IMG/VR virus record: IMGVR_UViG_3300032011_000096
Coordinates: 1 to 27,626 of that record
From: a virus
Strand: one strand, 5' to 3'
Length of the DNA stretch: 27,626 bases
Each line of letters starts with the position of its first letter. The first letter of the stretch is position 1. The position numbers were made by a program, and so were the translations under genes. Shown one piece after another: positions 436-20,000 of this stretch. Under the pieces are notes generated by a model. It made no database searches. It saw only the letters and a list, made by a program, of their open reading frames with translations, and was not told the origin of the DNA.

Positions 436-2595
436 ATGAAGAAATACCATCCGTTTTCTGAAAAGATAGTCGATATCCTTGTTCGTAAAGTTAACAATGA
501 TAATCGACATTTTTTTCGTGTTTTAACTGGGTATTACTTATCTAAAGTAGCTTCTATGATGCGATGTAATATCCAAACTAAAGAAAGAGACGTAATCCCT
601 GTAAATACTTATGTATTAAATTTAATGGTATCAGGAACTGGTAAAGGGCACTCAACTAATATTCTAGAAAGAGAATTTATAGCCCATTTTAAAAAAGAAT
701 TTTTAAATAATATATTCCCCAGAAAAGCTGAAGAACATATTGAAATTTTAGCTCAAGAAAGGAGCAATGCACGTATCAATAATGGACAAAGCATTCTTCC
801 AATATCTGAAGAATACGCAATTCAGTTAGATAAACTACAAAGACATTTTGAAAGATTAGGAGAATTAGCATTTAGTTTTGACAGTGGAACTTCTCCAGCT
901 GTTAAACAAATGAGAGAAAAATTACTGTTAGCTTCTGCAGGTTCCATGAATCTGGAACTAGATGAAGTTGGATCACATTTAGCAGCTAATGAAGATGTTC
1001 TAAATACTTTTCTTGAACTCTATGATATAGGATTAGTAAAACAAAAATTAATTAAAAATACTGCAGAGAATATCAGATCAGAAGAACTACCTGGCAATAC
1101 ACCAACTAATCTAATGATGTTTGGTACACCTACTAAATTATTAGATGGCGGAAAAGTAGAAGAAGAATTCAAACAATTTTTAGAAACTGGATATGCTAGA
1201 AGGTTACTATTCGGGTATACAGTAGATAGTCACAGAACTAAATATGCTTCTGCAGAGGAAAGATATGCACAGATGGTAGATGCAGAGTTAGCTTCTGACA
1301 TGCAAATGATACAGCATGCATTTATGAATTTTGCTAAAAGACCATTTAATCCAGTTCTACAAATGTCAAAAGAAAATTCAATTCATTTAATAAAATATCA
1401 AATAAAATGTGAGGAAGCTGCTGACGAATTTAAAGATCATATGACCATTCATAAAGCAGAAATGGTGCACAGATATTATAAAGCTATTAAGCTAGCTGGA
1501 GCCTATACATTTGCAGATAATTCTACTGAAATTACGCAAGATCATCTAGATTACGCTATTAGTGTAGTAGAAGATTCAGGAGAAGCTTTCCACACTTTAA
1601 TGCGTAAACAAGGACCTTATGAGCGTTTAGCTCACTATTTGGCAGATTGTGATAATGAGGTAACTCAGCATGAGTTGATCGAAGAACTCCCATTCTACAA
1701 AGGCTCAGAGGCTCAAAGAAAAGACTTAATGACTCTAGCAATGTCTTTTGGTTATAAAAACAATATTATTATCAAAAAACGAACATTAGACGACATTGAG
1801 TTTTTCTTAGGAGAAACCCTTATAGAAACTGATTTAAATAGATTAACAGCAGGAATAAGCCAGGATATAGCATACCATTATAAAGTAGAGAATCCTCCAT
1901 TTAATCAATTACATAAGCTAACAACAGCTCCAGGATATCACTATACAGCCCATGGTTTTGTTAATGGGCATAGGAAAAGTGAAAACGCTATTCCAGGATT
2001 TGATCTTTTAATTTTAGATTGCGATGGGGATGTAAGTATGTCGATGGTTAAAGTGTTATTAGAAGATTACACGTTTCTAGTATCTACAACTAAACGACAC
2101 ACTCAAGAAATTAATCGCTTTAGATTAATATTACCCTTGTCACACAGATTAAAATTAACAAATGATGAGTATTCTAAATTCATGATGAATGTATTTGAAT
2201 GGTTACCATTTCCTGTAGATGAAGGAGCTAAAGATATTGCTAGGAAGTGGGCCTCACATCCAGGAGTTTATGAATATAATGCTGGAAGTATCATCGATGC
2301 TACTATGTTTATTCCAGAAACTAAACGATCTGATGAAACAAAAGCACAGATAACAGCTACTGGAATAGGTAATATTGAAAGATGGTTCAAAACACATACA
2401 TCAAGAGGAAATAGAGCTAATCATTTATACAGGTATGGAATGGTACTGATAGACGCCGGTTTATCATTAGCAGAAATTATAGAAAAAATGGAAATATTTA
2501 ATAATTCTCTAACAGCTCCGTTACCAGAAGAACAATTTAGAAAGAGTACAATTATATCTATAAGTAAAGAATTTCAAAAACGGAGTACGGTGTAG
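436..2595 (+). CDS. ATPase/primase-like replication protein (N4 gp43-like)
   Basis: This is a 719-aa predicted replication protein. The N-terminal half has a P-loop-like motif GTGKGHST at residues 67-74, set in a helical context like DUF3987-type helicase modules. The C-terminal half looks like an archaeo-eukaryotic primase (AEP) core: an acidic cluster LDCDGD (D528, D530, D532), then STTKRH (H555) leading into NRFRLILPL, then a third acidic site near D595/D600 in DEGAKDIARKWASHPG. These match the order of the DxD, sxH and hD motifs of AEP enzymes. By domain order and length it resembles the N4 gp43-type primase protein. That assignment comes from motifs only, not from alignment. It starts at ATG 436 with AGAAAGG upstream and ends in TAG 2593-2595. 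The last codons (CGG AGT ACG GTG TAG) already follow the 5-bp pattern of the noncoding array that begins right after. Expected role: priming DNA synthesis for the genes downstream. Confidence 0.75.
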   Translation: MKKYHPFSEKIVDILVRKVNNDNRHFFRVLTGYYLSKVASMMRCNIQTKERDVIPVNTYVLNLMVSGTGKGHSTNILEREFIAHFKKEFLNNIFPRKAEEHIEILAQERSNARINNGQSILPISEEYAIQLDKLQRHFERLGELAFSFDSGTSPAVKQMREKLLLASAGSMNLELDEVGSHLAANEDVLNTFLELYDIGLVKQKLIKNTAENIRSEELPGNTPTNLMMFGTPTKLLDGGKVEEEFKQFLETGYARRLLFGYTVDSHRTKYASAEERYAQMVDAELASDMQMIQHAFMNFAKRPFNPVLQMSKENSIHLIKYQIKCEEAADEFKDHMTIHKAEMVHRYYKAIKLAGAYTFADNSTEITQDHLDYAISVVEDSGEAFHTLMRKQGPYERLAHYLADCDNEVTQHELIEELPFYKGSEAQRKDLMTLAMSFGYKNNIIIKKRTLDDIEFFLGETLIETDLNRLTAGISQDIAYHYKVENPPFNQLHKLTTAPGYHYTAHGFVNGHRKSENAIPGFDLLILDCDGDVSMSMVKVLLEDYTFLVSTTKRHTQEINRFRLILPLSHRLKLTNDEYSKFMMNVFEWLPFPVDEGAKDIARKWASHPGVYEYNAGSIIDATMFIPETKRSDETKAQITATGIGNIERWFKTHTSRGNRANHLYRYGMVLIDAGLSLAEIIEKMEIFNNSLTAPLPEEQFRKSTIISISKEFQKRSTV

Positions 2596-3235
2596 TTCAG
2601 TGCAATAAAGTTGAGTACAGCATAGTAGCACTGAGTTCAGTATAGTGAAGTACAGCCCAGTAAAACTAAACAAGGTAGTATATTTGGCGCGATAAAGTAA
2701 AATAAAACCCGATTTAGTGTATCGGAGTGGTGCAGCGCGGAATGGAATGGTGTTCAGTATCTTATCGTAAGGATTTATTTTCCCCTAAAAAATTTATATA
2801 AACTTGGTTAGGTGCAGTCGAGTCCAGTTTAGTGCAACTCAATCGAGTACAGTACAGCTTAGTTCAGTAAAGTGAAATTCAGCGTAATTAAATAACACAT
2901 CTCAAGGATCTATTTACCCCTAAAAAATTATCTCAGTAGCGCAGAGTTCAGTGTAGCGTAATTGAGTTAAGTGCAGCACCATCCAGTTCCGTGGAATTTA
3001 ATAAAGTACAGTATCACATCGTATCGTAATCTTTTCCCCCTAACAAATTTACCTCGGTATAGTAAGGTAAAGTGGCATTTGATGTAATCGAATACCGCGC
3101 AGTATAGTTCAGTTTCGTTGAATTGAATATGATAGAACATCACATCGTAATTATTTATCCCCTAAAAAATTCTAATAATCGGGTGGAACCCGGTACAGTG
3201 ACATTAGATGAAGTAATGCATCGCAGTTCAATAAC
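2581..3235 (+). repeat. Degenerate 5-bp (TNNAG) tandem array 1
   Basis: About 650 bp without a credible gene. Most of it can be cut into 5-bp units of the form TNNAG (equivalently AGTNN). From 2581 to 2660, 13 of 16 consecutive pentamers end in AG, for example ttgag tacag catag. From 2823 to 2882, 9 of 12 do. The middle two bases vary freely, so this is not a simple microsatellite. Register is held over tens of units, then lost and regained around the CCCCTAAAAAATT boxes. The array begins inside the last codons of the upstream primase-like gene and fades before the next gene's ribosome binding site. Two units span 10 bp, close to one helical turn. The function is unknown; a protein-coated or bent DNA segment such as an origin, or a regulatory spacer, is inference. 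Confidence 0.8.
2759..3171 (+). repeat. Four copies of a CACATC-GTAA-TTTCCCCTAAAAAATT box
   Basis: Four imperfect copies of a roughly 33-bp box sit within the pentamer array. Their best-conserved ends are at 2782-2794, 2917-2929, 3037-3049 (one change: CCCCTAACAAATT) and 3159-3171. Spacing between copies is 135, 120 and 122 bp. Upstream of each conserved end is a looser CACATC(T/G)..AA element followed by a T-rich stretch; copy 1 has CTTATCGTAAGGAT in its place. All four face the same way. Directly repeated boxes in a noncoding region among replication genes are what iterons of an origin would look like, but no host initiator site was identified. A weak fifth relative without the C run (CACATCACATCAGATTCAC) lies at 4016-4034 in the second array. 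Confidence 0.7.
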
Positions 3236-3276
3236 ACAAGGTAACATAACTTTAACTTTAAAAAAGGAGTATCAAA

Positions 3277-3867
3277 ATGTTTGTAACAGCAACGTGTCAT
3301 CTAAAAAGTGCAAGTGTTTATAGTCAATCAAGACCGTATCAAGTAGACAAGAAGCCTCGAGAAACTCCAGGAGATTATGAAAAAAGAACATGGAGAGAAC
3401 GAATGCATCTTAGTGAAAAGAATTCTGGAAAAATTGTAATCCCAGCAATGCAATTTAAAAATAGCCTAGCAGAATGCGCAAAGTATATGTCTCAACAAAT
3501 TCCAGGTAAAGGAAAAGCAACGTACACAAAGCATTTTGAAGCCGGTGTTATAATTATGGATTCTATGGAATTAGACATTAAGGCAGATGATGTTAAAGGT
3601 GAAACTGTATTTGTTCCTTCTAGTGGAAAACGAGGGGATGGTAATAGAGTTTACAAAACTTTTCCAAAAATACCTAGCTGGTCAGGAGTTATAGAGTTTA
3701 CAATTTTTGATCACACCATTACAAAAGAAGTTTTTATAGAACATCTTACACAAGCTGGTCAATTTATTGGTATCGGTAGATGGCGACCTCGTAATAACGG
3801 ATTATACGGACGATTTACAGTTGATAAAGTTGACTGGAAAGAGAACGAAGTAGCTAAAGCAGCATAG
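3277..3867 (+). CDS. Conserved phage protein of unknown function
   Basis: A 196-aa protein starting at ATG 3277 with a strong ribosome binding site (AAGGAG, 3264-3269). It is a soluble alpha/beta-looking protein with no signal peptide or membrane segment. The N-terminus (MFVTATCHLKSASVYSQSR) and the C-terminal motif IGRWRPRNNGLYGRF resemble a conserved family I associate with replication regions of tailed phages, often near primase and SSB genes. I cannot attach a biochemical activity to it. The C-terminal half is basic and aromatic, so nucleic-acid binding is possible. The gene is isolated between two TNNAG arrays. Its stop codon TAG (3865-3867) is part of the 5-bp pattern, and the last seven codons (NEVAKAA) have a decayed second copy exactly 80 bp downstream. 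Function is inference only. Confidence 0.8.
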   Translation: MFVTATCHLKSASVYSQSRPYQVDKKPRETPGDYEKRTWRERMHLSEKNSGKIVIPAMQFKNSLAECAKYMSQQIPGKGKATYTKHFEAGVIIMDSMELDIKADDVKGETVFVPSSGKRGDGNRVYKTFPKIPSWSGVIEFTIFDHTITKEVFIEHLTQAGQFIGIGRWRPRNNGLYGRFTVDKVDWKENEVAKAA

Positions 3868-4100
3868 TGGAGCATAGTATAGTTTAGTGTAGTAAAGTGT
3901 AGTAGCACACAGTGTCGCATCTCGATGAAATAGCTAAAGCGGCCTAGTAGCACTTAGTATAGTGCCGCAGAATGTAGTGAAGCCAGATTAAGTACAGTAT
4001 GGTGTAGCCCGGTATCACATCACATCAGATTCACTTATTTTAAAGTGAAGTGTAATACAGCGCCATGGAGTTACTTATAGTATCTCTCGGTGAAATCCAG
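3863..4100 (+). repeat. Degenerate 5-bp (TNNAG) tandem array 2
   Basis: A noncoding stretch of about 240 bp built of the same TNNAG units as array 1. From 3863 to 3912, 9 of 10 consecutive pentamers end in AG (catag tggag catag tatag and so on). The first unit contains the stop codon of the preceding gene. The pattern weakens after about 4015, where CACATCACATCAGATTCAC interrupts it, and partly returns before the ribosome binding site AAGGAAAGG (4113-4121) of the next gene. All units point in the direction of transcription. No promoter or terminator is evident. Confidence 0.75.
3924..3947 (+). pseudogene. Ghost copy of the 3' end of the 3277-3867 gene
   Basis: These bases read GAT GAA ATA GCT AAA GCG GCC TAG (DEIAKAA, stop). 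The true end of the upstream gene reads AAC GAA GTA GCT AAA GCA GCA TAG (NEVAKAA, stop), exactly 80 bp earlier. Of the differences, two are silent third-position changes and two give conservative substitutions (N/D, V/I). Similarity continues weakly into the following repeat up to TTAGTATAGT (about 3963). There is no start codon or longer frame, so it cannot be expressed as a protein. It may be the remnant of a tandem paralogue, or an 80-bp (16-unit) duplication of the array that included the gene end. Confidence 0.55.
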
Positions 4101-4126
4101 TGAAACCTCATAAGGAAAGGAATAAT

Positions 4127-4645
4127 ATGACTGATCCAACAGTAAATGAAAAAAGAGAACCCTTTTGTAGAGCAATAGAAACTACAAGTTTAATGAAAGA
4201 ACTAGAAAAACTAAGGAACGGTGAAGAAATTACTTATGAAGAATTATCTAAAATAGCGATGGGGAATTGTGCACCCACGGGTATTAAAAAAGGTTTTCTT
4301 AAATCTGCCCGAGATATTTTATTTAAAACTAAAGGAATAGAATTTAAAGCAATTCCCAATGCTGGTCTACAACGTATGTCAGATGAAGATAAAATGGATA
4401 AAAGCCAAAAAACTTTACCTTCATATCAGAGAAAAGTAAGAAAAGACATGCATAGACTAACTTCAATTGACTTTGATAAATTATCAGCAAGTAAACAATT
4501 GGAGTGGAATATACAAATGACAGCTACTAATGTGCTTAAAACTGTTAGTTCAGGTGATGGAATAAATATAATTACTAAGGAAATAGCTAGTAATAGCAAT
4601 CCTGATAGATTAGCACTAGAAGAAACTCTTAAACTATTTATGTAA
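4127..4645 (+). CDS. Hypothetical phage protein, possible winged-helix fold
   Basis: A 172-aa protein. I chose ATG 4127 because AAGGAAAGG (4113-4121) lies just before it; the frame extends upstream to a GTG at 4100 with no such site. The central part (YEELSKIAMGNC..GIKKGFLKSARDILFKTKGIEFKAI..AGLQRMSDEDK) has the helix-helix-strand rhythm of a winged helix: a short helix, a second helix beginning 'IKKGFLKSARDILF', then two short strands with a Gly turn. The C-terminal third is helical and polar. No catalytic motif or membrane segment is visible. If the fold is right, a DNA-binding or regulatory role is plausible, and its place between two TNNAG arrays makes it one candidate for the factor that binds them. 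That is inference. I do not recognise a named family. Confidence 0.7.
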   Translation: MTDPTVNEKREPFCRAIETTSLMKELEKLRNGEEITYEELSKIAMGNCAPTGIKKGFLKSARDILFKTKGIEFKAIPNAGLQRMSDEDKMDKSQKTLPSYQRKVRKDMHRLTSIDFDKLSASKQLEWNIQMTATNVLKTVSSGDGINIITKEIASNSNPDRLALEETLKLFM

Positions 4646-4694
4646 CATGGCCCAGTCCGATGGAGTCCGGTGCAGTAAGACAGCACTCAGCATG
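4646..4694 (+). repeat. Degenerate 5-bp (TNNAG) array 3, short
   Basis: After the stop of the 172-aa gene about ten units of the same pattern appear: cccag tccga tggag tccgg tgcag taaga cagca ctcag. The match is looser than in arrays 1 and 2. It is the third and shortest member of the series (about 650, 240 and 50 bp). The following 37 bp carry AAAGGA, the ribosome binding site of the next small gene. Confidence 0.5.
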
Positions 4695-4731
4695 ATAAAA
4701 TATGGCAACGTTTTAAATAAAGGAAACTATT

Positions 4732-4908: not shown

Positions 4909-5626
4909 TAATCATTTAGTACTAGTCTCAGGAAAATCTAGTTCAGGTAAAAGCGCTAGCTTACTAGATATGGATAAACCTGAAGGCGTTATGTATTTGA
5001 ATTGTGAGAATGGTAAGAAGTTACCATTTAAAAGTAAATTCAAAGAATTAACTGTTACTGATCCAGATCAGGTATACCAGGCATTCGGTGAAGCAGAAAA
5101 AATGCCTAATATACATACTATAGTTATAGATAGTTTAACGTACTTAATGGATATGTATGAAAGTACTAAAGTATTGCCTTCAACAAATACTATGCAGGCA
5201 TGGGGGCAGTACGCACAATATATGAAATTACTAATGTCTCAGATAGTAGCTAAATCAACTAAGAATGTAGTATTTCTAGCACATACCTCAGATGTTCTTA
5301 ATGAAGCTGAGATGATAAATGAAACCATGGTCAAGGTTAAAGGATCTTTAATGAATCAGGGTATCGAGAGTTTCTTTACGTGTGTAATATCCACTAAGAA
5401 AGTAACTCTAGGAAAATTAAATGATAAAATTGCTAAATCAACATTATTTAAAGCTACTCCTGATGATAAAGACAATGGATTTAAGTACGTATTTCAGACT
5501 AGACTAACTAAAGAGACTGTTAATGAACGAATTAGAAGCCCCATGGGAATGTGGGCTTTAAATGAAACGTATATAGATAATAATTTACAAAATGTAGTTA
5601 ACAGACTTCATAAATATTATACGTAA
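4901..5626 (+). CDS. Sak4/RecA-like P-loop ATPase (N4 gp42-like)
   Basis: A 241-aa AAA/RecA-fold NTPase. The Walker A motif is GKSSSGKS at residues 11-18 and Walker B is TIVIDS at 73-78 (D77), followed by a central helix rich in Trp/Tyr/Gln (MQAWGQYAQYMKLLM). A strand (NVVFLAH) then ends in a polar residue, as in the sensor strand of RecA-like proteins. Size and motif order fit the Sak4 single-strand annealing or recombination-mediator ATPases of phages, and the gp42-type ATPase of the N4 replication module. Expected role: loading or remodelling proteins on ssDNA during replication and recombination, with the SSB-like protein encoded two genes downstream. The start at ATG 4901 is preceded by AAAGGAGAG (4881-4889), and the gene overlaps the upstream coiled-coil gene by 8 bp. 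Confidence 0.8.
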   Translation: MNNNHLVLVSGKSSSGKSASLLDMDKPEGVMYLNCENGKKLPFKSKFKELTVTDPDQVYQAFGEAEKMPNIHTIVIDSLTYLMDMYESTKVLPSTNTMQAWGQYAQYMKLLMSQIVAKSTKNVVFLAHTSDVLNEAEMINETMVKVKGSLMNQGIESFFTCVISTKKVTLGKLNDKIAKSTLFKATPDDKDNGFKYVFQTRLTKETVNERIRSPMGMWALNETYIDNNLQNVVNRLHKYYT

Positions 5627-5649
5627 GTTCTACATGATATAATAAGGGG

Positions 5650-5686
5650 GATAGGCCTTTTTTCTCCTCCTTGTAAAGGTTCTATC
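5650..5686 (+). other. Imperfect stem-loop (RNA hairpin 1 of 3)
   Basis: GATAG (5650-5654) pairs with CTATC (5682-5686), and an inner CCTTT (5656-5660) pairs with AAAGG (5675-5679), with small internal bulges and a pyrimidine-rich loop. It is the first of three consecutive hairpins in the 150-bp gap after the ATPase gene. No T run follows it directly, so it is not a terminator alone. Confidence 0.4.
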
Positions 5687-5700
5687 TAACTGAAGAGTTA
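5687..5700 (+). other. Small perfect hairpin TAACT-GAAG-AGTTA
   Basis: A 5-bp perfect stem with a purine-rich 4-nt loop immediately follows the first hairpin. N4 virion RNA polymerase promoters are small hairpins with 5-7 bp stems and loops of about 3 nt with a central purine. Size and loop make this a weak look-alike, but the stem is AT-rich and no conserved downstream sequence can be compared, so this is only a note. Confidence 0.25.
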
Positions 5701-5711
5701 CAAACTACTAG

Positions 5712-5753
5712 TCCTCTCTGTCCTTGCTCGGGATAGAGGGGCATTTTATTTTT
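5712..5753 (+). terminator. Probable intrinsic terminator
   Basis: TCCTCT..GTCC (5712-5722) can pair with GGGATAGAGGGG (5730-5741), with one or two internal mismatches. A T-rich tail (CATTTTATTTTT, 5742-5753) follows. This would end or attenuate the transcript reading through the primase-to-ATPase genes before the next unit starts at 5777. The stem is imperfect, so partial termination is likely. Confidence 0.5.
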
Positions 5754-5776
5754 AAATACTAAAATTAAGGAGATCT

Positions 5777-7887: not shown

Positions 7888-8069
7888 AACTAAAATCAAT
7901 ATGGGTTAATGCGCAAAGCTTACTTTTTGCAAGCTTAACAATAGTAGGAGTAGTGGTAGTAATAATAGCCGGTATAGCCCTCCTACCAGTAACTATATTA
8001 CTAATAGCGATATTTGTTTTATTTGTTATTTATAAGGTAGTTATTTCAGACGATGAACCTATCAATTAA
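7884..8069 (+). CDS. Small two-helix membrane protein
   Basis: A 61-aa protein with an uninterrupted hydrophobic stretch from about residue 13 to 53 (FASLTIVGVVVVIIAGIALL, then VTILLIAIFVLFVIYKVVI). It has a Pro/Leu turn in the middle, a basic N-terminus (MKLK) and an acidic tail (SDDEPIN). This is a helical hairpin in the inner membrane. Small size and topology would suit a holin-like or membrane-remodelling protein, but no lysis enzyme lies beside it and the name is not justified. It is the last gene of the + strand unit. Its stop overlaps the 3' end of the giant - strand gene by 8 bp. Confidence 0.7.
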   Translation: MKLKSIWVNAQSLLFASLTIVGVVVVIIAGIALLPVTILLIAIFVLFVIYKVVISDDEPIN

Positions 8070-11000
8070 ACAGCCCCTGGAACCAGGCAACAACCTCAAA
8101 ACCAGTTGCATTATTAGCCTCATCAAATAAATCATCAAATTGAAGCATATTAGGAGACATATCTCCAGCTAGCCATGAAGCATTCACATTACCTAATGTA
8201 GGTATTCCAGTTGTGTACTGGATACCTGCAGATAGTGCTACTGAAGTAGGACTAGCTTGAACCAACTGTTTAGAAGCTCTCTGATTTCTTAAGAAGTATG
8301 AGAGAAACGAGGTGGCACCTACAGCATCAATTGCTTCTAATGCAGGCACTAAGGCTTCATCAAATAATACAAATGCATTAAGAGCTTCATGCATTGCTTC
8401 CTTAAAACTCCGCCCCTTCACCTTCGTAGCATGTTCTATCATTACATACCTACCTAAAAAGTCTGTCATTTGAACTAGATGTCTAGACATTTGATACGGC
8501 TTACTAGATTTAGTTAAAAATAACCAATTTGCAGCAGTACCTACCTTTTTAGGAATCCTATCTGTATATCCTTTAAATTGAAATGATTCTAGCCTTAGCA
8601 TACGCCTCATACGATTAAAATACCCATCTGTTTGAGCATCATTAATATCTTCTACAATAAGTGAATTTAATCCTGCTTCACTCATTCTATGTAATTTATT
8701 ATTCTCTATTTGTGCAGTAAGCCTAGCTATTTGCTGAGCTTCTGGGCTATTATCAGATAATTTTTTACTATTTTTTAATTGCCTTAACCTTCCACGTTCT
8801 TCATGAGCTGTACGATATTTTGAATATTCACTTACGCCTTCTACAATTTTATAGAATATGTAAGATAGTGGAATTTTCCTCATAGCTAGTTGGCTAATAT
8901 TAGAAAATAAATTACTAAATATTACTTGAGGCATACCAATAACAATACGATCTTTTCCGTAACCAACAATTTGTTTAACAAGATAGTGAGCTAGTGCAGC
9001 TACGTACTTAGTTCTAGGATGCCCATCTAAACGTTTTAATTGAGATATATCAAATGATTTATAACCAAATACTTTATCAATAATATCTTCTCTAACCATA
9101 AATTTACCATCTACTGCGTATGATTGAATTCTATCACGCACTGATTTAGGTAATTTATAATATCGCTCAATATATGCACCTTCAGGATCTAGAATATTTG
9201 TGAATTCTTTTGGATGTGATTCGAATAGATCTAGCTGTTCATCAACTAAAATATCAATAGTTTCAAGATTATTTGCAAGACTGGCTTGTTTATCAATCAA
9301 TGACGAATTCATATGAGCAAATACGTTCTGAATTTCAAGATCTGGTCTTAATAATTCTTTAGTTTTTTGATGATCCATCAGTACTCTATAATCAGTAATT
9401 CGACCAGTTTCATCCATTACAGGTCGTAATTTTAAAGAATCATCTTCTTGTAGAAAAGTATCACTACCTGGATCAGATTTTTTATTTTCTGCATCTATAA
9501 ACGCTTTTACTTTTTGTTTAATTAAAACAAAATCAGGCTTACCATTAACTTCATAAGCAGGATCTCTCATGAATATTTCAGTTAATGTAGTTCCCATATT
9601 ACGTTGGTTAGTTGTAGATAGAACTCCAGATACATCTGTTACTTCTGGCATATGACGACTAACATACAACGTATCGTATGTTTGATTTGAATCAAATTTA
9701 GCTAATGGGTAAGACTCAGTATACCCAGCTCTTTTCATTTTTTCTGCATCAGCAGCTGTACCTACTTTTGTACTAGTTAGATTATCTACTCGTTCAATAA
9801 TATAACCTTTAACCATTTGAGTTGGGTTATCTTTAAATAGAGCATTTTGCGAATCTTCTTTATATGCTAGATGACTATCTAACATATCAATAAATCCATT
9901 TTGAGTTTTATCTGCTATAAATTCATTATCGACTAAGTCTCTAACATTGCTAGATTTTCTAGAATCTATATGTTTTAAAGCTTCAAGTGTTGTATAAGCA
10001 TCTAATAAACTAATTTGTTCTTGGCTTGGAGTGTTTAAATACTTCGTAGCAATTGTATGTGCATTCATATGCGCAGCACGTAATTTAGTTTTTCCGGTAG
10101 CTATATGATAACCAAGCTCTTCAGCATATCTAATAGATGGGCGGAATCCATCACTTTGGAGTTGTTTTAATTTCTTCTTAATTGTTTTTTGTGTAACATT
10201 AATAGCATTATTATCATTAATAAAATCCTTAATCTCTGCATGTGTAAACCCTGCAGTAATCAGACTTGATAAATCAGCTTTAAATAACACATCAGTTAGC
10301 GCTTCTTTTAATTCTACAGACATAGAATGATTATCTTTTGGATCTACTGATTTCCAAATACTATCTATACCTTCTGCGTTGTCTCCATTAAACCATTGGA
10401 TAGTAGATCTCTCAGCTTCTTGACGAGCCTTAGATATATTAACTTTAGCGTGGAGTAGTTGCTCAATCATCTCTTCAGATAATGCACCTCCACCAATTTC
10501 ATTAGCTACACCACGTAAAGTTTTATTAATATTTTGTATAGAATATCTTCGCATTCGTTGAAATGTAGCACTTTCACTTAATGTATAAACAGTTCCTGCA
10601 ACTAAACCTTGAGCAACTGTACCTATTCTAGTTTTAGCATCAGAATTCATCATTTTTCGTGATTGTACTTCCGCAAACTTACTAATTTTCTTATCAGCTT
10701 CATCTAAAAAAGCGTATGTTTTGCTTTGTAATTGCTGAGCTTTACTCTGGTGTTTGCTTTGAATAGCTACCAGGTGTTCAGTTATTGCGAGCATTTGCTC
10801 AAAACCATTTTTATCTGCTGAGTTAGAAGCTGCGTTACCAAACACTCGTTTAAATGTATTAACAACCATTTCAACTGCACGGAGAAGTTTGCCAATAAAA
10901 TCTTTACGTATTGCAGATGGTTGTGTTTTAAGATAATTTATCATCTGCTTATTGGTTACAGCATATGCTAGAAATTCATGAAGTTTATGGGCTTCTTGTT

Positions 11001-14000
11001 TAGGATTATCAAATACATATTTATATTGTTGTTTAGCTGTAGCAATATCATTTACAGAGGGTTTACCTATTCCTTTAGGTAAGAATACTCTCCACCCTTC
11101 ACCTTTAAACTCAGGATTAGTTTTTAGATCTGCTTCTACTTGACGGTATAATGCAGCGATATTATCAGCAAGTAGTGGATTATCCTGTATTGCTTGCCAA
11201 GTCATAGCATGTACTAATTCATGTGTGTACACTTCTTGAGGAGATTGTCCACCAATAGATAGTGGCATCTGACGAGCAACAGATACTCTTATATGGTTAC
11301 GTTTAGTTTCATAGGTGCCCTGGGTAATTCCATTAATTTGCTCAAGTGCAAATGAAAGATTAGAAGTTTCTGTAAGACCTCCACCTAATATACCTAATAC
11401 ATCTTCCAAAACAGAAGTGTGGTCATTCATTTCCTGTTTACTATTATAATAATTAACTGAATACTCTTTTACTTTATTAAATAAATCTGTAATTGTATTA
11501 AGTGTGAGCCCAGATTCTAATACAGTTCTAGCATCACTTTTAGGTAAATCATCTAATGAATCAAAACTCTCTGAGTCTTTTTCGTCTTTTTTAAGAAATT
11601 GCTCATATAGTGCTTCAAAATCTGTATTATCAACATCTGCTTGTTGACCTTCACTAGGTTTTTGTTTTTTCTCAGGGTTAGCTATTTCTTTTTGAACTTT
11701 AGTAAATATTTCATTATGATCATCTGGGTTAGTTAAGTATTTATGTCCTTTTAATAATATACGCATATCATCAACATCTAATCCACCAGAGTTTACTCTA
11801 AATGCAGGCCAAGCTCCTCCTAGTCCTGAAGGAGCATCACTATAGGTGTAACCATCTAATTGAAATTCTCCAAATTGGTCTCCACCTTTTGAATTTAATT
11901 GAGATATCCCTCCTAACTTAGCAATAGCTGTAAGTATCCCGTCTTCGAGAGGATTAATATCATCTCCTGTGTAACGTATTTGTTTTCTTTTATTTTGTTT
12001 TTTCTGCAGCCTTGCTTCCCATTCTTCTAAAGTTTCGTTTACTTTCTTTTTTATGCCACCTGTAACAGATTTAACAGTATCCGCTAATTCCTCAGTAGGC
12101 ATATACATCTGATATGCTGAAATCTTTCCACCATTTTCTTTAATCTTTTTCTCTAATTTATCTCTTTCTTTTTTAACTCTGCCTACTGTTCCTGTAATAC
12201 TAGTATCTTTTTTCCCTTTTTTTAACTTAGGATCACGAAACATAAGTTGCTTATAGCCCTTTTTTGATTCGGCCTTTTCTATAAATCTATTAGCAAAAGC
12301 ATTTTCTTTTATATGTTTATCTACTGCATCAAATAACCCAAGGTCTTCAGTTATACCAATAACATGAAGTACCTGTTCATAGGTTTTTTGTATAACGCTG
12401 TGTTCTCTACCAAATTTTAAAAAGTCTGCATTGTAATTTTCAGCAGCTTCAACTAGCTGTGCTGGACTTCCCATAAATGCATCATGTAGTGCTAACATTC
12501 GAGGGTGTTTACCTAACGTTAACGTTAATAAAACAGAATCCATGTTAATGATTTGTCGGATTAGTGCACTTACTCCTGGAGCTACGAACTCTAATTTACT
12601 TGGATTACTAGTAACATCTCCATCTTTAAAATTTGATGCAACTCTTTCAGGAGTGTTCGGTGTTCCACTAGTTTCTCGTTTAGTAAGATCTATGCCGCCC
12701 TCCATAATATTATCTTTAAATTGAGATAAAGGTCCTTCATATTGTGGGTAAACTTCCATTAATCGATCAGTATTCGTAATAATAAGCTCATCAATTTCTG
12801 TTTTAGTTAATGAATTTCTTTTAGTTTCTTTAAGGGCTTTTTCGTATGCCTTATTAAAATGAGTTATAAATACTGAATGCAATATTTCTCCCATTTGTAT
12901 AACTGCATTTCTTGCTTCTTTAGTTTCACCTAACATATGATCTAACGCACCATCAAATCTTGGTGCTAGTACTTTAGCAATACCATCTTGTAAAAATAAT
13001 TCATTTAATTGAAGTTTATATATGTTTGTGTCATTACTTTTAAAAGCTTCAATAAATTTATTATCAATAGCATTCATACCATGTCGCTCAACACTTCCAT
13101 CTGGATTTACAGTAGTTTCAATATTAAATGCTTTTAAATTATCAAAATAAGGTTCTACAACTTCTTTAAGATAATCTTCTTGTGAACGAGCAACTATGTC
13201 TCTAGCTGCTAGATCCTCTTCTAATTGTTTTTTTAGTTCTGGGCTTGGATTATTTAAATCATTATATTCTCGTTGCATGCGGCTTAACTGAGAATTAATT
13301 GAAGTAACAATGTCTCCAGCTACATCATTAGAAATACGCTCAATGCCTCCACCGTACATATAGATAAGGAAAGGATATTTAACAAGACTCCGTAGATCAC
13401 CATTTTTTAGATCTGGGTATAATTGCGTTAATGCTGCATCACGTTTATTGTAAGTAGATACGTATTCCTCCTCCGCTTCTGCAATAGCTTCTTTATCCCA
13501 TCCTTCTTTTTTTAATCTATTAGATTCATACCCCCATGCCGAGTCAGCTCCCATGAACTCTTTCATAATTTCAACTAATCGTTCATACACATCCTGCTGA
13601 TCTGTATCATGTTTAGTATTGTCTCCAAAATAAATACCTACCTGACCAAATATCTTTTCTAAATTTGTACCAAACATTGGGAACTGTAGAACATTCATAG
13701 CCCAGCCATTAGAAATACCATCTATTTCCATGACTACATCTGATTCAAATGTGCCGTCTTTTTTGTATTTAGATAATCCAGTTAGTGCATTTATAATAGA
13801 AGTACCGTGGGCTACTTCATATTTTGCTTTAATTTGAGGAAGAACTTTAGCTAAAGCTGCAGCATGCTTTTGCTGTGTTTTTTCATCCTTAGCATTATCT
13901 AAGGCAGTTAATGCAGCTACGGCTTCTAAAATAATAGGATCAGCTGTTATTTTATCAAACTCAAGAGCACTAGTTTTATAGTCTTTTTTATCTATCTTAA

Positions 14001-17000
14001 ACCCTAGGTTCTGAGCAATAGCTAATTTAAACATCCACAAATTCTTTTTATTATATTTTGTGGGTCCCCAGGATTGCAGTAGGAATCTACTGACTTTACT
14101 ATTTTGTGGATTAATGCGCCCTTGCATTAAAATACGATGCTGATTTTGTAGTTCGTATTTAAAATAAAATTCTTCTAAATCACCATTTTCATACGCTTCT
14201 AGTATTTCATCAATAGCAGTTGTTTTATCAGAGTTTTGTGATTCTAAGGATTTTGCTTCTTGTACCATAACTGTATCAGGATCAAAAGCCTGATACCCTG
14301 CTAACTCATACAATAGCTGTGTATGTCCATTACTAGCTAATTTACTAAAAATACCCATAGATTCTGCTGCACTCCATGGGGTTTTTTGTAATGATTTAAG
14401 TCTAAATATAACTTTTGCAGGAATCTTAGTTAATACATTTTTAATATCCGTAGAAACTTCAGGAATACTTTTTAAAGGTCCCTTATCTGTATCTATATTA
14501 GATTTATTTATTTCATTAATACCATCTAGTGCTTCAATCTCTTCAGGCGTAAGACTTGGTGCATTTTCATTAGTAACGATATGTCTATATTTTTCTGGCC
14601 CGTTATTAAATCTTCGTCCTTCTACTTTATCTTTACCATCAAATTTCCAAGTATGCTCTTCAATACTAAATATATGTCCTGTACCTGAATTATCTATCTC
14701 TGTCTCAGCTATCTGAACAGCTACTATGCCTAGATCTACACCTAAATTTTGATAGTATAAATTAATACCACCATCAGTAATATCTGGATCTTTTTCTCTT
14801 AGATCCTTTTTAGTTACTCTTAATATGTTTTGAATTTGTCGTCCTAAACGATTAATTGTTTGTGTGTAGTCTGCTCCAAGATTTTCTAATTGTTCATAAT
14901 CATTACCTTTTAACTTTCCATGTCCTCCATATAAAAAATCTTCTCTATCATAATTACTTCTAAAACGTATAGTATCACCAGAATTTTGTTTGGACCAAAC
15001 CATAGTACTTATCATCATTGCAAATAGTACTTGATTTGGTAGTTCTTCTTTACCCGTTCTATCGTTCTTTCGCATTAAAATAGTTAATGGTCTTTTAACA
15101 GCAAAAGCTGGCATAGATTTTGAACTAAGTATTTTTTCATAACGTTTTCTAAAATCTATAAAACGTTTAGTAAGAATTTTAGCTCCGTCTTTAGATAGTC
15201 CTAATTCTACAAGAGCATCTGTTAATGTAGTTGAACTAGCAAAATTAGCATCAGTAAGAGTATTAATTCCTGGGCTAGATATATCTAGATCAACAAGATC
15301 TAAAAACTTCTTCCCAACAATACCTAATATATTTTCTATATTCTTTCCGATATTTTTAATTGCTGGGTCAGCTTTAGTAATTACAGTTTTGTATGTTTCT
15401 GCGACTGCAGCAATAAAATTCTGAATTGTGGTAGGAGCTTTTATTGTAGTAGGAGCTTTTTTAGTAGATTTTCTGGCAGCTATTCTTTCTGCTAGTACTT
15501 TTGCGTGAGAGATATCAGCTTTTTTAAAATAGAGTAAGTCTCTCGTATCAAATAATGTTCCGTCAATTTGATCAAGAATCCACTGTCTACGTTCAGGCTC
15601 TACCTCTGTATCGTTATCATTTAACCAGGCTTCATAGTTATCAACAGCTTCTTGTACACTGTCAGTTTTAAAGTTAAGACCTGTGTACCCTCCAGCTGAC
15701 CAAGGATTCCCAAAATGGAATTCAGGAGTCACATGCGGAATACTGTCACCATCCTTCTTATTGACTCGCAGTGTGTAAACTGCACTGTCACTATTCTCTA
15801 TAGCATACTGTTTAGCTTTTTTGGCACCCTCAAAGAATTGAATTATCCCGTCTATTACTGCATAGACTTTCTCTTTAACTGTTTTGCCGAATAGTAAGGG
15901 GAGTTGGTATCCCTTCTCACCTGGCTTAAGAGGTTCAACAACCCCTGGAGTAGTTTTAGTAGTTTCATCAGATACTGGAGTCTTTCCTTTAGGGAGTTCT
16001 CCTTCTTTAAAAGGGAGTTCCAGTTGTTCCCCTGATTTCTTTTTAGAATCTGCATCTGTTTTCTCTCCCCTTTTTTCAGCAGCGAGAGCCAGAATTTCTT
16101 GTTTAGTATCATCCTGTGTAGTTCCTTCCTTTGTATTCTTATAGCGTTCTATTTCATTACCTGCTTGACTGACACTCTTTATTGTACCGTCTGCAAAAAC
16201 CCTATACTTTATTTTTCTACCTTTTTTATGAGTGTATGTTACTTCTACATAAGCCTTTTCACCAGTTTTGAGAACTACATCGTCTATATCTTTTTTACTA
16301 GCTTCTTTTGTAGGAACAGAAAGCTCTGCCTTGATTCTTTCAAGTTCTTCCGTTAATTCTTTATTAGCTAGTCTTTCAGATTTCTGTTGTTCTAATGATG
16401 TGTTGTAAGAAGTGTCTTGATATCCTTCAACTATACTTACTGCAGCTTCTCCAAATTTAGCTTCGTTACTTAACGCTCTAATAAGTTTAGAAGAATTTTC
16501 GCCAATTCTAAAAAGATATTGTCGTTCGTTAGATTTACGACTTTCAAGACCTTTCTTACGTTCCTTTTGGAATTCTGTGTCTGTAAGAGCTACTTGAGAT
16601 ACTGTGTATTTCATAGTGCGAAGACCAGCATCATTCTCCACTCGCTCACCAATTACAATAATTCCTTTTCCATCTTCTATTTCTTGTGATGTTAATTTTT
16701 CGTAAGCAGCTTGAGCAGCTTGAAAGGCAATAAATTTATTATGAAGATTCTCTGCGTGATTACGCATTAAATCTTTAATTTTTGTAATTCTTTGACCAAG
16801 TCTTCTTTCATCTCTTGCAGAAGGATCTGGGTTATCTTTTTTAAATTCTGCAATTAATTTTAAAATATCTGTACGATAAGTATCTATACCTTTCCATCTA
16901 GCTGATCTACCCTCAAGAATTTCTGTATCAACTTCTTCTAAATCTTTATCAATAGTACTGGTATCTTCTTTTTCTAATCGTATTTTTAATGCTTTAAGGT

Positions 17001-20000
17001 CTCTAATTTTCTGAATAGCAGCTTTATCTTCTGGTGTTTTAGCTTTATCTTGTTCTGCTTTTAATTGTTCATCCGTAAAATTATCAGGATCAAGAGAGCC
17101 TTCTAAAAAATTACTACCAAAAATACTAAATACACTTTCACCAGTATCTAGTGCTTTCTTTAATGACTTGTTTAAAATCTTACCAATCTTAGTTTTTTGC
17201 TCAGGAGTTAGGCCTCTTTTAACTACTCTACTTAATTTTTGTAGAGTTGAAGCTTTTGGAGTAACGCCCATCTCATCTAATATATTATTTAATTCAGAGT
17301 CCTCAATAGGTTTACCTACATCTGGGTCAATTTCACCTTTATCTATAGATATAAACTCAGCGTATTTCTTTTCTAAATGTCTAAAGGAAAATTTTCCTTC
17401 TTTAAGAAGATCTTTATTTCTACCAAGAGCTTTCTCTAAACTCTTTCTGTACGCTGTTCGTATTTTTGTTTCGACTTCAATACTTACCGGAGTAAGTAGT
17501 TGTGCATACAATACTTGTTCTTGTCGTCTTAAAGTAGCTAGTTGTTTTTTGGCAGTTTCAGAGAGAGCTGTTTCTGTATCTTCAAAACCTAATTCAAATT
17601 GTTCACCAGAAACTTTACCAGTTTCTTCAATCTCTGCTATTTTAGCTTTAGTCTCTTCCCACTCTTTTTTAAGTTCAGCAGCTTTAGGATCAAACCCAAG
17701 TTTCTCAGAATCAGCTAGATCCCCAAATAAAATAACACCTCCTAAAGCATCTTTCTCTTTTTCAGCTGCTGCAGATAGTGGTCCTTGTTCTTCAATAGTT
17801 TTGTTAATATTTTCAAGTTTAGTAATTTTAGCTAATTCTGATTCTATCCTCGCTAATCCTCTTTGAAGCTTAGCTTTATTTTCAGCTTTATCTATTCCAA
17901 ATATTTTTCTAGTAACTCCTTTACCCGCTCCATAAGCTCCACTAGTAACAATCATACCGCCAGCAGCTCCAGGAGTAGCTACAGCTTCGTAATAAGCAGC
18001 CATTCCAATTTTATCTATATCAGCTGTACCAGTTTGAGCATACTGTTCAAAAAAAGAAGTAGCAGCTCCTTGTTGAGCTTCTCCAGCAAGTCCACCAATA
18101 GGAGCAAGTACACCTCTGTAAAGTAAACCGTCTTTAAAAGTTTTATTTTGTGTATCTACAGCTGCTTTCATTTTCTTGGTCCAAGCAAGCTGTCCACCTA
18201 TTCCAGGGAATTTACCAATAACTTTTACAAGAACTCCGGCACTTACTTTTTCAGCTACCAGTCCTGCAGCAGATGACCAATTAATACGTGAACGTTCTTC
18301 TGTAGTAGGTTCTTTACCTGTTCTAGTAACAAATTCTTCGATAGCTTGATTGGCTCTACCTTTAGCTAACATAGTAAGCATAGCTAATTGCATAGGAGGT
18401 CCGCCAGCTGTAAGAGCTACCATAAATCCAATACTAGCAATACCCTGTTCCATCATGGTACCAAGGTCATTAGATACTGAATGCCATATAGCAGCACCAG
18501 TACCTTTGTATTTTTGAATAACTTCAGCAGCTGCTACAGCACCTTGGTAATCTGCATCATTTACTGGGAAGGCATCTCTATACTTTTGAGCTTCTTCATG
18601 AATTGATTGTAATTGTTTTCTATTTACTTGAGCTTGATTATGTAATTGAGTGAGGGCTTGAAAGTTAGGATGTTCTTCTGATAATGTACCAGCTTTATAT
18701 TGAGCAACCTCTTCAGGAGTAATAGCTGTTGTATCCCCAGATCTATCTCTGAAAGTATTATAATCATCTACTTGTTGGGTTAGAGTAGTTGCTCCAGTAA
18801 AAGCAGAGAACCCCATTTCAGCTGGAATTGCCCAACTCTGCATAAACATATTAAAGTAGTTACCTAGTGTACTAGTTGGAGCTCCTAAGTCCCTAGCTCT
18901 TACATCTGCAGCTTGATAAGCTGAAAATGATTTAGCAGTAACTTCATCAAGACCCGGTAAAACACTCCCATCTGCTACTCGTACTGACCATGTACCGTCT
19001 GCATGTGCAGATACACGACCATCTGTTTGTATAGCAGGAGACGTTGATTCCATATAATTAGGTGCCGATAATCCTCTTAGTCCTGGAGCTGTTATATCAA
19101 CCGCACTAAGTGCATCACTTAATTCTCTTAGATAATCTGGTGAATAAGGAGTACCTAAATCAGGCATCAGATTTACTGGAATATTCGGATTTCCATATAC
19201 AGCTGGATCAGTTTTAAGGATTTCTAATGTTGGGTCTTCCTTAATTTTTTCTTCAACTTTTTTAGGTATTTTAGCTTCAGTTTTTATAGCTAAGTTACGT
19301 TGTTCTTGTTCACTAAGACTGGTATCTTCTATACTCTGTATTTTAAGTTCTTCGTCTATTTTTTTAAATTCTGCTATTTCTCTTTGTCTTGCTTCTGCAC
19401 GTTCTCTGTCTTTACCAGGATCTCTTCTGTCTATATCTACTTCAGGTTTAAAATCTTCATCAGGTTTAGATGGGACAGTCGTAGGTTCACGTCCCATTGT
19501 GGTAAGTTCATCGTGTAACTGGCCTTGAAATCCGTAAGCTAGAGTTGCTTCAGATACTTCAGTTTTCTTAATTTCTGCTTCAATAGGAGATGCTTTTTGA
19601 ATAGCTATCTTTTTTTGATTGCTATCAACTAATTTAGCTGCAGCACCTCCTGGAACAGCTAGATCTGAAGGTTCTATAGGAGCAACATCTGGACTTTCAG
19701 GTACCTGAAAAGTTTTAATTATCTCTGTAGGTGTGCTAGGTTTTACTGCTTTTGGAGTTTCTAATTGAGGACGGGTATCTTGTTGCCCTATAAAATCTTC
19801 AGAAAAAGTTTCTAAAGGTGGAATATCAGGTTTGATTTCTTCTGCAGGTTTACCTTTTTCTAACTGCAATTGCTGTACTTGCTCTAAATCTTCTAGAATC
19901 TTTTTATATGCTGGTTCTCTTGGAGGTTGTTCCGGTATTGTTGGGTCTGCTTCAACAACAGGTTGAGGCTGTAATCCACGTCTAGTATCTTGTTGTCCTA

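Follow-up and report, generated by a model that had tools for sequence, protein, structure and literature searches.

Repeat arrays and genes at the locus

We analysed a 27,626-base viral fragment from IMG/VR (record IMGVR_UViG_3300032011_000096, positions 1 to 27,626; hereafter the window), which derives from an N4-like phage and encodes a primase, a Sak4-like recombinase, SSB, a RuvC-like resolvase and a 4255-amino-acid (aa) protein. Between the primase and Sak4 genes lie two extra genes, encoding proteins of 196 and 172 aa, and all of the intergenic DNA around them is made up of some ten tracts of a degenerate 5-base unit. We consider it close to certain that this locus is a Viral Interference Programmable Repeat (VIPR) system, and put the probability that it comprises a Vipr protein, a candidate Vap partner and arrays of guide RNAs (vrRNAs) in a marine N4-like (Schitoviridae) phage at roughly 0.94. 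VIPR is a known kind of element, a relative of CRISPR found in phages and described in the literature that we searched in a single preprint of April 2026 (PMC13142463). To this the locus adds a marine N4-like clade, approximately ten guides, a relaxed repeat scaffold and a guide that reads as a methyltransferase motif.

The initial annotation of this DNA, made from its letters alone, had reported three separate arrays of TNNAG, one after each of three consecutive genes, and had known of no described element of this form. The periodicity itself stood up well, with lag-5 identity in the three named gaps exceeding that of dinucleotide shuffles at z = 9.4, 4.0 and 2.0, while the other gaps tested in the window gave z ~0, as had been claimed for them; the argument that the free middle bases speak against slippage of a simple repeat is also correct. 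The reported counts of TNNAG were too high, the exact numbers at 2581-2660, 3863-3912 and 2823-2882 being 9/16, 6/10 and 8/12 instead of 13/16, 9/10 and 9/12. TNNAG captures the right period in another phase, and the better unit is R-R-Y-N-N on the + strand (R, purine; Y, pyrimidine; N, any base), with AGT, AAT, AGC or GGT followed by a free NN pair. In-register RRYNN runs extend over 15 of 15 units in gap A, 13 of 15 in gap B and 8 of 9 in gap C, lengths that none of 2000 shuffles matched; on the minus strand no run in the whole window does better than 10 of 15. Nor are there three arrays behind ordinary genes: about ten tracts form one system from 2579 to 4713, arranged around the two extra genes.

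In the N4-like clade that shares these arrays, the three RRY positions carry 0.75, 0.78 and 1.13 bits and the NN positions 0.08 and 0.02 (1.05, 0.89 and 1.18 bits for RRY in the relatives); units were chosen by their RRY pattern, so that the NN values alone are unbiased. The first unit position in the clade is A at a frequency of 0.69 and G at 0.21. Viral contigs hold at least 120 stretches of seven perfect AGTNN units, a result that is uninformative on its own. The features of the locus are as follows.

2579-2678, + strand: guide g1, ~17-20 RRY/NN units; begins within the last primase codons, ends AACAAGG
2686-2760, + strand: guide g2, ~12-15 looser RRY/NN units
2764-2797, + strand: conserved tail block 1, ATCGTAAGGATTTATTTTCCCCTAAAAAATT
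2801-2895, + strand: guide g3, 18-19 RRY/NN units
2896-2930, + strand: conserved tail block 2
about 2935-3014, + strand: guide g4, 16 RRY/NN units
3015-3050, + strand: conserved tail block 3
about 3051-3135, + strand: guide g5, 16 RRY/NN units
3137-3173, + strand: conserved tail block 4
about 3177-3231, + strand: guide g6, 8-11 units; ends CACAAGG, directly 5' of the Vipr ribosome-binding site
3277-3867, + strand: Vipr gene, 196 aa, RAMP (Cas7/Csm3-like) by profile and predicted fold
about 3861-3920, + strand: guide g7, ~11 RRY/NN units; overlaps the Vipr stop codon
3927-3963, + strand: 81% copy of the Vipr gene 3' end and first array units (original 3847-3883)
3941-4015, + strand: guide g8, 14-15 RRY/NN units
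4044-4108, + strand: guide g9, 8-13 loose units
4127-4645, + strand: gene for a putative Vap of 172 aa, conserved alongside Vipr; N-terminal domain predicted to be winged-helix-like
4644-4713, + strand: guide g10, 10-13 RRY/NN units; antisense decode reads as C5-methyltransferase motif I

Identification of Vipr and a candidate Vap

Searches of the 196- and 172-aa proteins against Pfam, PADLOC and NCBIfam gave nothing useful, the one weak NCBIfam match, to the 172-aa protein, falling far under the cut-off. A profile built from five relatives of the 196-aa protein, however, matches PDB chain 36pp_D, annotated as the SUSP1 Vipr protein, with an E value of 1.6e-5. The predicted structure (mean pLDDT 74.8) resembles the Cas7/Csm3 subunits of type III and type VII CRISPR systems (Foldseek E 3.7e-7; Z 12.7 over 161 residues at 3.6 Å), and a G-rich stretch near the C-terminus, FIGIGRWRPRNNGLYGRF, is largely invariant. 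By profile match and modelled fold the 196-aa product is Vipr, a Cas7/Csm3-like minimal RAMP of the kind expected in a VIPR system (RRM core, glycine-rich loop), and its gene is the sole RAMP-like gene among the open reading frames examined. The 172-aa gene is conserved as the partner of Vipr; for the N-terminal part of its product a winged-helix-like fold is predicted (Z 8-9.6), weakly and with low confidence, and its assignment as a putative Vap rests on position.

The preprint describes a RAMP protein, Vipr, an accessory protein, Vap, and vrRNAs in which 9-16 YNNGG repeats, their NN hypervariable, precede a 3' tail. Through the NN pairs these recognise DNA with a 1-nucleotide skip that falls for the most part on the wobble base of a codon, and they repress rival phages and satellites (PMC13142463). 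As a control we ran our profile and array scan on the genome of Escherichia phage SUSP1 (KT454805), which carries a type II system. The profile found one gene, at 28477-29079 on the minus strand (E 3.8e-8), and the scan placed one GGY/NN tract upstream of it and three downstream, four in all and no others, in agreement with the published description (PMC13142463). ALH47003 and ALH47004, considered as the SUSP1 Vipr and Vap, proved to be the wrong proteins; the right gene, also placed at 28474-29061 of the record, is another one.

The two phage-borne systems thus share a single RAMP gene with one small partner gene, and same-strand tracts of purine-purine-pyrimidine/NN pentamers that flank the Vipr gene both up- and downstream. 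They differ in that the window carries about ten guides to the four of SUSP1, and in residing in a marine N4-like phage. A second group is formed by VIPR loci of other phages with GGC/NN arrays (L220-L290; L numbers denote viral loci fetched for comparison), whose Vipr proteins are 49-61% identical and whose arrays likewise flank the gene, although their units are GC-rich and their genomic neighbours different. Weak relatives such as LESphi2 P21_9 and phrog_4652 are counted with this group.

The same predicted subunit fold (Z 12.7), presumably lining RNA in the same way, invites comparison with the Cas7/Csm3 backbone of Class 1 CRISPR-Cas systems of types III and VII. Membership in that class was considered and rejected: the stretch studied contains only pentamers with free NN, and no identical repeats with contiguous unique spacers, no cas genes were seen beside the single RAMP-like gene, and the guide would be read in steps of five RNA letters by non-contiguous pairing, unlike a CRISPR guide.

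The arrays and gene pair as an exchangeable cassette

The primase of the window has counterparts in 80 viral loci at 63-85% identity, in most of which the Sak4 gene follows the primase closely and both the arrays and the gene pair are missing. Arrays and the 196- and 172-aa genes stand between primase and Sak4 in no loci but the window, L052/L084, L068 and L083, and the expectation that close relatives would have arrays at the same place is therefore borne out for L084, L068 and L083 but fails for most relatives with the same primase. L085 and L215-L219 have the gene pair and its arrays at another place, flanked by genes for an AAA ATPase and a metallopeptidase-like protein, and some of these second-site cassettes share a contig with a close primase relative (L215 is L072, L217 is L018 and L218 is L012). 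The cassette occurs in 11 N4-like contigs at two genomic places. Because the arrays and the pair also lie together at this second place and are missing from most close primase relatives, they are one exchangeable cassette. More broadly, an array stands beside the gene in 67 of 80 viral contigs encoding a relative of the 196-aa protein, outside the clade of the window mostly with a GGC/NN unit, and short noncoding pentamer arrays of this kind can be used to spot VIPR loci by eye in viral contigs.

This distribution bears on whether the arrays are instead double-stranded DNA binding sites, an iteron-like origin or a partition or packaging track, bound by a neighbouring protein with two units per helical turn. 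A same-strand spacing of 5 bp is indeed about half a helical turn, and the neighbours (primase, Sak4, SSB) are replication genes. Yet the arrays travel with the Vipr and Vap genes away from those replication genes (L085, L215-L219), they are missing from most relatives that retain them, and NN letters that are hypervariable but selectively conserved would be unexpected in protein-binding iterons; moreover, the homologous SUSP1 arrays are transcribed and copurify with Vipr (PMC13142463). We regard DNA binding sites as very improbable, and reject a replication origin. Among the roles proposed in the initial annotation, a transcript element and a track for a polymerising protein come close when combined, as a guide RNA for a RAMP family that oligomerises on RNA, while the origin, and SSB or primase as binding partners, find no support.

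Conservation of the NN letters and proposed growth of the arrays

If RRY serves as a scaffold and NN as the readout, the NN letters should be kept while RRY drifts within its class. Between g10 and the last guide of L068 the NN letters are identical at 22 of 22 positions, while RRY is identical at 23 of 33 and by purine/pyrimidine class at 32 of 33. Guide g1 and its counterpart in L216 share 22 of 24 NN and 22 of 36 RRY letters, g1 and a guide of L084 share 33 of 36 NN letters, and g4 has an NN core common to L084, L085, L216, L218 and L219. Guides were paired on the strength of NN similarity, so that their NN identity is overstated, but the g10 set was identified independently, by its position 3' of the 172-aa gene. 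Preservation of NN with class-limited drift of RRY is the pattern predicted by a split between scaffold and readout, and at the level of sequence supports it, the locus thereby providing an independent evolutionary test of the published non-contiguous code.

Several tracts end in a conserved tail, ATCKCAAGGAT...CCCCTAA, the full block being ATCKCAAGGATTT(A)TTTNCCCCTAAAAAATT; its sequence is conserved across 17 copies from several loci, and several tracts have only a short CAAGG version. Segments of the locus have also been duplicated. A 37-bp stretch comprising the Vipr gene end and the first array units (3847-3883) recurs 80 bp downstream (3927-3963) with 81% identity, and L219 holds the end of its own Vipr gene in three copies (5222-5243, 5303-5324 and 5473-5494). 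The copies of the Vipr gene end at the start of downstream tracts in both suggest how guides multiply: a segment taking in the gene end would be duplicated in tandem, and its NN letters would then change.

The 37-bp duplication, and the looseness of tracts g2 and g9, would also suit arrays that are nothing but functionless debris of decayed simple sequence or tandem duplication. We find this scarcely credible, given that every NN letter of g10 is kept between diverged phages across 10 RRY differences in 33 that all but once respect class, that period and strand are held in the 67 of 80 Vipr loci, and that guides decode to conserved protein motifs.

Decoding of guide targets

On the opposite strand, and with 1 nucleotide skipped after each pair, g10 gives the codon starts TT AT GA CT TT GC GG CC GG GG. 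These decode as [FL][IM][DE]L[FL]AGPGG, which is motif I, a conserved core element of DNA cytosine-5 methyltransferases. An 18-letter version of the pattern has exact matches in 28 viral contigs and the 20-letter version in 3 bacterial contigs, and all 31 matches lie in frame as I(D/E)LFAGPGG within open frames of methyltransferase type; with all 20 letters there was no match in viral contigs. When up to 2 mismatches were allowed in 150 Pseudomonadota genomes, g10 found 29 sites against 2 for a reversed control. In L215 the guide syntenic with g10 has different letters and played no part in choosing the sites; its top scores among 592,190 positions fall at the g10 sites. It extends beyond GPGG (codons L and G) and departs from the motif in a few places, a good though imperfect match.

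A second decoded guide comes from the L220-L290 group and is aimed at rival Vipr genes. The L272 guide (5538-5617) matches the Vipr genes of L260 and L261 (near 5163) at 20 of 20 letters, in frame and with the skip at the wobble position, over the conserved peptide AEAAKYLGMQ; it matches the L249 Vipr gene at 18 of 20 and its own at 14 of 20. An NN code with the skip at wobble positions is thus supported by g10, the one window guide decoded, and by the L272 guide. A code that passes over the wobble base would allow a single guide to recognise an entire gene family.

Target searches in public collections covered g1, g4 and g10, and the other window guides were compared with the fetched loci, where none of the ten had a full-length target match. 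By eye g1 had seemed to read as an XRE-repressor motif, a candidate that we rejected, as its viral matches are at chance level and the genomes show no excess.

A number of observations must be set against the identification and its code. The window unit is RRY with A preferred and not the strict GGY of SUSP1; the tail differs in sequence from that of SUSP1 and is apparently unstructured, folding of the single strand having given no stable structure, unlike the SUSP1 pseudoknot; and no sequence relationship was detected between the 172-aa protein and any SUSP1 protein. The g10 motif had been spotted by eye ahead of its testing. Guide g1 has two unrelated chance-level matches in viral contigs and 6 sites in 398 genomes against 5 for its control, g4 likewise shows no target excess in 398 genomes (3 against 4), and when all guides were pooled and compared with the fetched loci, matches with a 1-nucleotide skip did not clearly exceed those of unit-shuffled guides.

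Within a VIPR system, the decode suggests DNA cytosine-5 methyltransferase genes, at their motif I, as the target of g10, and hints at what the phage silences; it is a concrete, testable prediction of a silencing target. We go further only tentatively, at slightly worse than even odds, in proposing that the guides are aimed at conserved protein motifs and not at the DNA of one strain, with g10 a broad-range anti-C5-methyltransferase guide whose NN letters are kept as its scaffold drifts, and that guides spread by tandem duplication including the Vipr gene end. A variant of the VIPR reading, compatible with it, is that guides act on targets other than rival mobile elements, for example host restriction-modification loci, where silencing of a cytosine methyltransferase operon could also block the linked restriction gene and so serve anti-restriction. 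The g10 motif does occur in bacterial genomes as well as in viral contigs, but methyltransferases are common in phages too (the 28 viral contigs), and related systems have been reported to target satellites and prophages (PMC13142463); we consider this variant rather unlikely.

Proposed mechanism

From the characterised system of SUSP1 (PMC13142463) we infer how the locus would operate in the window phage. Transcription of the + strand arrays would yield vrRNAs, each with ~8-18 RRY/NN pentamers and a conserved tail, along which the 196-aa Vipr would assemble into a ribonucleoprotein, each pentamer taking one subunit and its RRY letters acting as the protein-binding scaffold. Each NN pair would then read two bases of double-stranded target DNA, with one base skipped, usually at the codon wobble position, and the bound complex would shut down transcription of the targeted gene with the help of the putative 172-aa Vap.

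Other observations on the locus and the window

Other relatives (L029, L030, L039, L040 and L041) have insertions of different kinds in the primase-Sak4 interval or its vicinity, so that accessory cassettes may insert there in general.

The 4255-aa protein (8062-20829) occupies the position of the virion RNA polymerase of relatives and has near its N-terminus an apparent lysozyme/transglycosylase-like stretch, SGATGLYQFMPRTWN. At 148-432 a small gene (MTDDEMNDEEILKDRANKYGPAKRCF...) is broken by an in-frame TAG (325-327), after which the frame stays open (IVRSAWNPNIEDNYKDGRNYLTIAHQCIEKKKGK) until the next stop. Finally, 3' of Sak4, at 5627-5776, there is a conserved noncoding block, CTGAAGAGTTAYAAA..., followed by a hairpin-like stretch, CCTCTCT...AGAGGGG; the block, possibly a promoter or terminator, is also present in L083 at ~3680-3800.

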